64,000 bases of DNA from the NCBI GenBank assembly GCA_002050165.1, contig MWSW01000014.1, forward strand, positions 62,001 to 126,000. The letters are read 5' to 3'. Below the pieces are notes generated by a model. The model saw only the letters and a program-made list of their open reading frames with translations, was not told the origin of the DNA and did no database searches. The translations under genes were made by a program, and so were the position numbers. Position 1 is the first letter of the stretch; each line of letters opens with the position of its first letter. This document shows, piece by piece, positions 58,876-61,560 of the stretch. The stretch comes from Candidatus Tepidiaquacellales bacterium OLB4/UTCHB1 (GTDB taxonomy: Bacteria; Bacteroidota; Ignavibacteria; Tepidaquicellales; Tepidaquicellaceae).

Positions 58876-59202
58876 ATGGACTACAACAAACGTCTACTGA
58901 GAGAATTAAATGCAAGAGTGCTTGAGTTAATCAATATTAATGGTAACGATTACGAAAGTAAACCTATACGTTTTCATTTTTATTCTAAAGACGAAAATCA
59001 AGCAACTAACCTTTCAATTGAACTTTATGAGATGGGAGGGAAAATAAAGCCGGTAGTTAAGTTTGAAGACAGGTGGTCAATTGTCGCAGAGTTCAATAAC
59101 ATTCAAATTGAAAAGAACGATATTGATAATTTCACGGATGTCATGGTTTCCCTTGCTGAAGAATTTGATTGTTCGTATGATGGTTGGGAAACAGAGATGT
59201 AG
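58876..59202 (+). CDS. RraB-like protein leading the ubiquitin-like cassette
   Basis: A 108-residue protein ending in MVSLAEEFDCSYDGWETEM, matching the C-terminal signature of RraB, the regulator of RNase E inhibition (LAEKFDVEYDGWGT in E. coli). The body also fits the RraB layout: FHFYSKDENQATNLSIELYEMG, then two strands. Its one cysteine is near the C-terminus, so it is unlikely to be an E2. Its stop is 45 bases before the ubiquitin-like gene start, same strand, so it is probably co-transcribed. Whether it binds RNase E or has been recruited to the modification system is unknown. Confidence 0.75.
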   Translation: MDYNKRLLRELNARVLELININGNDYESKPIRFHFYSKDENQATNLSIELYEMGGKIKPVVKFEDRWSIVAEFNNIQIEKNDIDNFTDVMVSLAEEFDCSYDGWETEM

Positions 59203-59247
59203 AGCAGAATCCATTTTAAAACTTCTTCGGGTTAAATAAATTTGTAT

Positions 59248-59517
59248 ATGCCAAAAATAAACGTAACAATAATAGATGCAACCGGTAACAAGGAGCAGGA
59301 GGCAGCATTGCCCGATGACGCGCCGATTAGCAGGATTATGGAGGTATTACTACCAAAGATGAAAATGCCTTTAACCGGTCCGGATAACGAACCGTTATCT
59401 TACAAGTTTCACCATAAAGCATCCGGCAGACAACTTAAAGATTCGCAAACCTTATCTGAGGCCGGTGTTAAAGAAGGCGATGTTTTACGTCTTCACCCGG
59501 AAATTACTGCGGGATAA
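59248..59517 (+). CDS. YukD/EsaB-type ubiquitin-like protein ending in Ala-Gly
   Basis: Starting at ATG 59248 (TTG two codons upstream is weaker) it has 89 residues with a beta-grasp pattern: KINVTIIDATGNKEQEAALPD, a central helix around ISRIMEVLLPKMKMPL, and LSYKFHHKASGRQLKDSQTLSEAGVKEGDVLRLHPE. This is like WXG100-associated EsaB/YukD proteins. The chain ends in I-T-A-G, so the terminal glycine is exposed without processing. The E1-like gene begins 31 bases downstream. No EssC-like secretion gene is present, so a modifier role is more likely than secretion. Conjugation has not been shown. Confidence 0.8.
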   Translation: MPKINVTIIDATGNKEQEAALPDDAPISRIMEVLLPKMKMPLTGPDNEPLSYKFHHKASGRQLKDSQTLSEAGVKEGDVLRLHPEITAG

Positions 59518-59548: not shown

Positions 59549-60706
59549 ATGATTGAAATAAACCAATCGCGTTATTCAAGGTTAGAAATAATAAACTGGT
59601 GGGATCAGGAAATACTTTCCAAAAGTAAAGTCCTCGTTATCGGTTGCGGTGCGCTTGGTAATGAAATAATTAAAAATCTCGCAATGCTTGGCGTCGGCAA
59701 TATTTTTGTTGTTGACCTTGACCTTGTCGAAGAAAGCAACCTTACCCGCAGCGTACTTTTCAGGAAAGGTGATCTTGGAATGCCTAAGGCGCAGGTTGCT
59801 GCAATTCGCGCAAATGAAATTAATGACGAAATTAACGTTAAGTACTTTAATGGAAATGTTTTTGAAATCGGATTAAATGTGTTCAGGAATATGGATGTTG
59901 TAATTTGCGGTTTGGATAATCGTGAAGCGAGATTGTTTGTTGACCGATCTTGCTGGAAAGTTAATGTACCGTGGATTGACGGAGCAATTGAAGTTCTTAG
60001 CGGCGTTGCAAGAATGTTCATCCCCCCTGATGGTGTTGATTACCAAAGTACTATGAGCGAAGTAGATTTTACACTCCTCAATAAGCGTCGTTCATGTATG
60101 TTGCTTGGACTTGACGATATTCAGCAAGGGAAAATTCCCACCACCCCGACTATTGCTTCAATTATTGCCGGCATTCAGGTTCAGGAAGCCGTGAAATTTC
60201 TTCATAAAAGACAAGACCTGATTTTACTTGACGGAAGGGGATTTCATTTCAACGGAGCTACTAATGAATCATATATAATTGAATATCAAATTGATGAGGA
60301 CAGTGATTCAAGATATTCTATCAATAAAATTGTTGACATCAAAATTAACTCCGGTGAATTATCTATCAAGGAAGCGTTTGAAATCGCATACCGGCAGTTA
60401 AAAACCGATGAAATGATACTTTCCTTCAACAATGAAGTTTTATATGAATTGGAAGACACGACTTCCGGAATAAAGAGAGCTTTTTATAAAAATTTCAATC
60501 TCGCAACACCGACTGATTTCAAAAAAGATAATGTCATGCTAAAACCAATTATGACAAGTTCGATAAAAAATAATTCCCCGCTATTTGAAAAATTGAAATC
60601 AAAAACTCTGGCTGAACTTGACATTCCCTTTAATGACATCATTGTAATTTCATCGAGTAATAAGGAAGTTGGCATTGCAACTGTGTTCACTGATATATTT
60701 AAGTGA
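59549..60706 (+). CDS. ThiF-type E1-like ubiquitin-like activating enzyme
   Basis: 385 residues from ATG 59549. A typical ThiF/MoeB/E1 adenylation domain: RYSRLEIINWWDQE, nucleotide loop GCGALG (32-37), Asp56 with Arg67 in DLDLVEESNLTR, Lys80 in GMPKA, and Asp123 in GLDNREAR. A candidate catalytic cysteine is Cys183 (RRSC), followed by GKIPTTPTIASIIAGIQVQEAVKFL. About 150 further residues end in TLAELDIPFNDIIVISS and probably form a C-terminal domain that engages the modifier. It should adenylate the glycine of the upstream protein and may carry it as a thioester. Its stop overlaps the RING gene GTG (GTGA at 60703-60706). Confidence 0.9.
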   Translation: MIEINQSRYSRLEIINWWDQEILSKSKVLVIGCGALGNEIIKNLAMLGVGNIFVVDLDLVEESNLTRSVLFRKGDLGMPKAQVAAIRANEINDEINVKYFNGNVFEIGLNVFRNMDVVICGLDNREARLFVDRSCWKVNVPWIDGAIEVLSGVARMFIPPDGVDYQSTMSEVDFTLLNKRRSCMLLGLDDIQQGKIPTTPTIASIIAGIQVQEAVKFLHKRQDLILLDGRGFHFNGATNESYIIEYQIDEDSDSRYSINKIVDIKINSGELSIKEAFEIAYRQLKTDEMILSFNNEVLYELEDTTSGIKRAFYKNFNLATPTDFKKDNVMLKPIMTSSIKNNSPLFEKLKSKTLAELDIPFNDIIVISSSNKEVGIATVFTDIFK

Positions 60707-61560
60707 ATCCGTTGGTAACTGAAAGTAGAAATAAAAATTGTCCGTATTGTCAATCCCCTGTTAAACGAAACGAGGCAACAGTGGTATGTCCGGAGTGTGG
60801 CATCTCACACCATCCGGAATGTTGGGAAGAGAATGAGGGTTGTACGACATTTGGTTGCCGTAACCAAAAAATTTTACGGCAACAGGTTTTGAATATAGGT
60901 AACCTTACACCGGACGAAGCTGTCAGGCTGGAGGTACAGGGAGATTCAGGCCTTTTAATAAATTGTCCTGAATGCAATGGACTGATTGAAGAGAATTCTG
61001 TTTATTGTAAATTTTGCGGTAAAAGAATAAATACTGACAGGGGAACAGATACATTTTACTCCGAATTCAGGGAGCGTTACGAACAAAAAGCATCATTACA
61101 CAAAAAACAAAAAATACTGACTCTCATTAGTTCCGTTATTCTTTCGATTGTAATTATTGTTTCTGTTACCATCTCAGTATCAGAACTTAGTGAAATCCTT
61201 ACACCCCGATATCCGGAACAAATCGACTTTCTCAACAAATGGTCTCATATATGGGAAAGTAAAGACCTCAATGCTATGGCGGATTTAATGGCAGAAGATT
61301 ACCGCTATATCGGACCAGATAAAAAGGAAACTAGCAAACATGAGAAACTGCTAAGATTGAAGTGGACATTTGAAAATTATAAATACATTGATTTGAAAAT
61401 CAAAAATGTTTTGGTTAATGCAGACAGTGTTTCCTCTATGCTTGAATTCAACCAAGAATATGAATCGGATAAATTTTCTGAAACGGGGATTAAGAGACTT
61501 TACTTAAAAAAAACGGACGGATCATGGAAAATATACCAGGAAGAATTCATGGAACAATAA
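60703..61560 (+). CDS. Membrane-anchored prokaryotic RING finger protein with NTF2-like domain
   Basis: A GTG start overlapping the E1 stop by 4 bases gives 285 residues. An N-terminal RING-type binuclear site has Cys13, Cys16, Cys29, Cys32, His36/His37, Cys40, Cys47 and Cys52 (CPYC...CPECGISHHPECWEENEGC), matching prokaryotic RING family 1. A zinc ribbon follows (Cys88, Cys91, Cys102, Cys105). After a basic KKQK, one membrane helix (about 139-160) leads to an NTF2/SnoaL-like domain (about 168-285). The basic flank suggests RING inside and the NTF2 domain outside. It is a candidate E3-like ligase for the upstream modifier; this is inference from context. Confidence 0.85.
   Translation: MNPLVTESRNKNCPYCQSPVKRNEATVVCPECGISHHPECWEENEGCTTFGCRNQKILRQQVLNIGNLTPDEAVRLEVQGDSGLLINCPECNGLIEENSVYCKFCGKRINTDRGTDTFYSEFRERYEQKASLHKKQKILTLISSVILSIVIIVSVTISVSELSEILTPRYPEQIDFLNKWSHIWESKDLNAMADLMAEDYRYIGPDKKETSKHEKLLRLKWTFENYKYIDLKIKNVLVNADSVSSMLEFNQEYESDKFSETGIKRLYLKKTDGSWKIYQEEFMEQ

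Follow-up and report, generated by a model that had tools for sequence, protein, structure and literature searches.

RING1, a protein encoded in the 64,000-nucleotide stretch of DNA analysed here (the window), probably acts as an E3-like, membrane-anchored protein in a ubiquitin-like conjugation system, one of a kind predicted in the literature. Its gene follows those of a ubiquitin-like modifier (UBL) and an E1-like enzyme, while other loci encode an E2, a JAMM (JAB) protease and RING2, another membrane protein with a RING (Table 1). Every part of a RING-containing bacterial ubiquitin-like cascade can be named here, and the modifier is highly conserved.

Table 1. Features of the predicted conjugation system in the window and at other loci
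Feature	Position	Strand	Basis and remarks
UBL, ubiquitin-like modifier, YukD family, 89 aa, end ...PEITAG	59248..59517	+	PF08817 5e-15
E1-like protein (ThiF family), 385 aa, C-terminal domain aa ~250-385	59549..60706	+	PF00899 3.8e-48
RING1, RING-zinc ribbon-TM-NTF2 protein, predicted E3-like	60703..61560	+	GTG start, 285 aa
RING1: RING domain, aa 9-52	60727..60858	+	PF14446; C4HC3 ligands C13 C16 C29 C32 H37 C40 C47 C52
RING1: zinc ribbon, aa 86-109 (CPEC-x10-CKFC)	60958..61029	+	Pfam Zn_ribbon_3/DZR, below cut-off
RING1: single membrane helix, aa 141-159, N side basic	61123..61179	+	hydropathy, K/R counts
RING1: NTF2-like domain, aa 172-282, predicted periplasmic	61216..61548	+	PF24125, PF13474; Foldseek
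E2, window genome	contig C13, L062: 7679-8224	minus	Pfam E2 model; HPN + catalytic Cys
JAMM (JAB) protease, window genome	contig C13, L062: 8228-9115	minus	Pfam JAB model
RING2, second membrane RING, 499 aa	G000:C6, L002:1495-2994		weak TPR match

The original prediction of four modules in this single chain, namely RING finger, zinc ribbon, transmembrane helix and NTF2-like domain, is borne out for all four. The N-terminal part matches Prok-RING_1 well above the curated cut-off (E 8e-11; 42.1 bits against 29.1), and the C-terminal part exceeds the Pfam cut-offs of both the Cds6_C NTF2-like family (residues 175-281; 7e-8) and SnoaL_3 (5e-7). The ribbon scores under its cut-off (1.7e-4); all four of its cysteines are retained in 21 of the 22 orthologs. 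An absence of conserved cysteines in orthologs had been named as grounds for abandoning the assignment, and the eight zinc ligands of the RING are invariant in all 22, at about 35% identity. The AlphaFold model, one of the checks proposed at the outset, has a mean pLDDT of 83, mostly above 90 in the NTF2 domain, and contains one long helix spanning residues 115-166. Foldseek returns Bd1075 (7o21; E 1e-7) as the top fold match of the C-terminal domain, and profile and fold together place it in the NTF2-like superfamily. Lysine and arginine average 6.4 in the 15 residues before the helix and 1.6 after it, a bias that by the positive-inside rule predicts an N-in/C-out orientation. The RING is therefore predicted to be cytoplasmic and the NTF2-like domain periplasmic, the topology first proposed.

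Why does RING1 lie beside a UBL and an E1? Its start overlaps the E1 stop by four bases (GTGA), from which obligatory co-expression had been proposed. This was too strong, as the overlap occurs in some lineages only and relatives elsewhere have gaps of up to about 100 bases; RING1 genes start with GTG, TTG or ATG. What the relatives conserve is not the overlap but the gene order UBL>E1>RING. Of 20 neighbourhoods retrieved, all from one family of Ignavibacteria, 17 show this order, two of them with an extra frame between UBL and E1. The eighteenth keeps E1>RING with the UBL on a different contig, and the remaining two, both of genus g8, have neither UBL nor E1. In three genomes of genus g2 (L013, L014, L015), no in-frame ATG, GTG or TTG precedes the RING, and ATT is a possible start. 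Comparison with relatives favours ATG at 59248 over TTG at 59242 as the start of the UBL. The operon lies beside menA. An RraB-like gene (58876-59202; PF06877, 7e-12) lies upstream of the UBL; its position is not conserved in relatives, and it was dropped as a part of the system because it is not kept beside the UBL.

Could the UBL and E1 instead serve sulfur transfer or cofactor synthesis, in the manner of ThiS/MoaD and ThiF/MoeB, with the RING unrelated? The E1 does belong to the ThiF superfamily. However, its NCBIfam ThiF/MoeB scores fall far under the cut-offs, the UBL ends in AG with precursor-like tails, and an E2 with an adjoining JAMM protease co-occurs with the UBL and E1; we regard this explanation as extremely improbable. 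The PDB sequence matches of the E1 are ubiquitin E1s, and in Foldseek its best matches are to UBA3 across both domains, at high rmsd. Residue C183, which falls in a low-confidence loop of the model, shows no variation in 18 rows from the family and 14 from across phyla and is a candidate for the catalytic cysteine. A search by sequence for a ubiquitin-fold domain in the C-terminal domain of the E1 turned up nothing in Pfam, and the PDB hits were noise. In other phyla this domain often carries two zinc-ribbon-like C-x2-C pairs, absent in the two Ignavibacteria E1s aligned.

No E2 or JAB gene was found beside the window operon; both were located elsewhere in the genome by a Pfam family search. 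Pfam E2 and JAB models, applied to 29 genomes of the family, show the E2, the JAMM protease and a gamma-carbonic-anhydrase-like gene side by side at this second locus in about 20. E2 residues H94, P95, N96 and C106 are invariant in 19 rows, as are JAMM residues E64, H128, H130, S138 and D141 in 26 cross-phylum rows; the JAMM motif of the window-genome copy is HSHPGHSVFMSDYD. The C-terminal glycine of the UBL, the HPN and cysteine of the E2 and the intact JAMM motif are features of ubiquitin-like conjugation systems. A membrane helix in the JAMM protein is followed by a LysM domain in most family relatives; the window genome's copy is without the LysM part. RING2 occurs in most genomes of the family, even where UBL, E1 and E2 are absent. 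Among 396 genomes of the phylum, UBL matches were confined to the window's family and E2 matches occurred in five, including two in family f41 and one in f39. E2-like (UQ_con) matches were seen in G196, G272 and G461, from other families of the phylum.

The UBL, E1, E2 and JAB parts and UBL-type chemistry are also those of the anti-phage systems Bil and type II CBASS, and PADLOC JAB models give moderate matches here. The other PADLOC models argue against a defence system: the E1 matches over partial length only, the E2 and UBL have no match and the RING match is not convincing. A chromosomal position beside menA and a family-wide presence are likewise unlike a defence island. Membership in Bil or CBASS was rejected, as the parts have no full-length match to defence-system models, and we consider a defence role very unlikely.

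A profile scan of genome contigs with the RING alignment detected 58 loci. Those outside Ignavibacteria include records titled as Clostridia, Synergistales, Acidobacteria, Zipacnadia, Verrucomicrobia, Planctomycetes, a deltaproteobacterium and Roseiflexaceae, and most of them hold UBL, E1, E2, JAB and RING together in a single locus. At six of the 40 other-phylum RING loci, no convincing partner gene was found within the stretch fetched. RING1 shows the profile, the C4HC3 ligands and the UBL/E1/E2/JAB association of the Prok-RING_1 family, with the E2 and JAB at a separate locus in the window's family. The architecture of RING1 had been called unusual. This stands for the NTF2-like part, found here only in the Ignavibacteria family and absent from the 25 commonest Pfam families in the other-phylum RINGs. 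It does not stand for the membrane anchor, which is the rule: by hydropathy, 34 of 35 RINGs from other phyla (the exception being a 61-aa frame) and 26 of 26 JAMM proteins have a membrane helix. LysM occurs in six of those 26 JAMM proteins. Four other-phylum loci (L111, L120, L124 and L142) have extra FHA domains, some fused to the E2, and trypsin-like proteases.

The UBLs of other phyla are 60-69% identical to the window copy, and all 27 rows compared across phyla share the PEITAG end, followed by nothing or by a variable tail. In L135 (6905-8125), as in L127, L137 and L144, the UBL forms the N-terminus of a frame of about 410 aa with no stop after PEITAG; the remainder of these frames has no Pfam match. 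The mean pairwise identity of the UBL is 88.6%, the highest of 13 proteins compared in up to eleven shared genomes (KBL 80%, an ABC substrate protein 76%, TopA 70%). Identity falls to 62% for the E1 and E2, 41% for the RING and 40% for the JAB. A slow modifier with faster writers and erasers, as these alignments suggest, is a ubiquitin-like pattern of conservation.

The window's family also contains natural losses. The genomes without UBL, strong E1 and E2 form one set, namely five of genus g8 together with G023, G025 and G014, to be read with the caveats that G005 is fragmentary and that the E2 of G022 would fall past a contig end. JAB matches in the loss genomes are few, under cut-off and never adjoining an E2. 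In a MenA tree, g8 groups with G015, G023 and G025, nested inside the family, while G014 sits unplaced on a long branch. Since G015, within that group, has the system, two losses are the simplest reading, and the UBL, E1 and E2 are best read as having been lost together at least twice.

What becomes of the RINGs in these genomes? All zinc ligands are retained in the 11 RINGs concerned (five RING1 and six RING2), and two other positions differ. G51, the glycine that precedes the final zinc ligand, is present in 71 of 71 RINGs outside the loss genomes and in none of the 11 within them (D, E, S or I instead), a count that treats related sequences as independent where the independent events number about three. 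The 71 comprise 21 RING1 and 15 RING2 from family genomes with the system and 35 RINGs from other phyla. An asparagine at position 44 occurs in all 71 and in two of the 11, partly by ascertainment, as only RINGs with N or H at this position could match the pattern used to scan other phyla; G51 lay outside that pattern and is unbiased. N44 belongs to the helix that separates ligands 6 and 7, and G51 to loop 2, between ligands 7 and 8; in known RING-E2 structures, both sites face the E2. Where the machinery is lost, the RINGs appear to change at sites expected to touch the E2, and the losses single out G51 and N44 as residues that a bacterial RING may need with its E2. The original suggestion of a ligase-like RING tied to the E1 is supported, and much more strongly once the E2 and JAB had been located and these correlated losses seen.

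The same genomes supply the best case for reading the RING as a structural zinc module, with the NTF2-like domain doing the real job and the placement with UBL and E1 due to operon coincidence or scaffolding. RING1 survives in g8 without UBL, E1 or E2, so that it has, or has acquired, another role there. Zinc ribbons are structural modules in TcaA/YvbJ-like membrane proteins, and the ribbon-helix stretch of RING1 has a weak TcaA match (NCBIfam NF053815). At the linchpin position, directly after the last zinc ligand, the window's RING1 has R53, but relatives vary freely there and do not conserve an Arg/Lys. Against this, N44 and G51 are kept only alongside the machinery, in two paralogs and two clades, and in other phyla, too, RINGs with very different tails are associated with UBL, E1, E2 and JAB. 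A purely structural RING is thus quite unlikely.

The missing linchpin and the membrane anchors of nearly all RINGs and all JABs of these systems would also suit a RING protein that is a target, anchor or receptor, bringing the E2 to the membrane while the UBL is conjugated without its catalysis. The E2-facing location of N44 and G51 suits recruitment and catalysis alike, and so distinguishes the two only in part; we judge a non-catalytic RING1 unlikely. An E3-like role for RING1 appears quite probable. As the linchpin is not conserved, it is uncertain whether E2~UBL is activated in the canonical way, and the claim is accordingly that RING1 works like an E3, not that it is a canonical RING E3.

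How might such a system operate? Comparison shows the parts, their conserved residues, their joint occurrence and RINGs that vary along with the machinery; the following chemistry, with the docking of the E2, is inferred. The JAMM protease would trim any tail after the PEITAG end of the UBL, and the E1 would adenylate the terminal glycine and hand the modifier on to the cysteine of the E2, probably via C183. On the cytoplasmic side of the inner membrane, the RING would dock the charged E2 and promote transfer to membrane-proximal targets, with the membrane-anchored JAMM protease reversing the tagging. The predicted periplasmic NTF2-like domain might localise or regulate the ligase; its input, perhaps the cell wall or a small ligand, and the targets of tagging are speculative. 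The idea that RING1 senses an external signal is plausible on its anatomy. Periplasmic regulation by the NTF2-like domain is held plausible on the grounds that the best relatives of this domain are parts of periplasmic cell-wall enzymes, and we rate it as possible, if somewhat short of probable. More tentative still, and rather unlikely as a whole, is a trans-envelope switch in which RING1, with its NTF2-like domain, and RING2 write, JAMM-LysM erases, all span the inner membrane and the state of the wall sets the tagging; it is suggested by the extracytoplasmic domains of writers and eraser, which are of kinds known to touch peptidoglycan. If the envelope link were true, bacteria would have a signalling route by which the cell wall influences the tagging of proteins.

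Systems of Prok-RING_1, YukD-like UBL, E1, E2 and JAB were reportedly predicted by Burroughs, Iyer and Aravind in 2011 (Mol BioSyst). The system described here shares with them Prok-RING_1 with its C4HC3 ligands, the YukD-type UBL, E1, E2, JAMM and the RING membrane helices, and differs in its split loci, the NTF2-like domain on RING1, the second membrane RING and the LysM domain on most relatives' JAMM. TcaA/YvbJ-type proteins have the layout of RING1 in their cytoplasmic zinc ribbon, single helix and extracytoplasmic NTF2-like part; unlike RING1, they have neither a RING nor a UBL operon. A passage of PMC11354881 cites the 2011 prediction, complete bacterial operons of this type are mentioned in PMC5654768 and LysM-associated JAMMs in PMC6043591. 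Within the literature searched, we found no biochemistry on bacterial UBL/E1/E2/JAMM/RING systems of the present kind. In the archaeon Caldiarchaeum subterraneum, biochemical work has demonstrated a cascade with a RING E3 and the processing of the ubiquitin precursor by a JAMM protease (PMC5654768, PMC6043591), and RING mutants at I30 and W58 bear on E2 binding (PMC5654768). That system (Ub/E1/E2/srfp/Rpn11) has in common with ours the full E1-E2-RING cascade and JAMM trimming of a precursor; it is archaeal, with a small RING protein and a Gly-Gly end, whereas ours is YukD-type, Ala-Gly-ended and membrane-anchored. Among periplasmic NTF2-like domains, that of Pgp2 is reported to bind peptidoglycan fragments and that of Bd1075 targets the protein in the cell (PMC8938487). 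In Bd1075, the top match to the RING1 C-terminal domain in sequence as well as fold, and in Csd6 and Pgp2, the domain is fused to an LD-carboxypeptidase, whereas in RING1 it is fused to a membrane helix and a RING. To our knowledge, what is new is the dispersal of the genes over separate loci, the NTF2-like domain on a RING protein, the presence of RING2 and the change in the RINGs that accompanies joint loss of the machinery.
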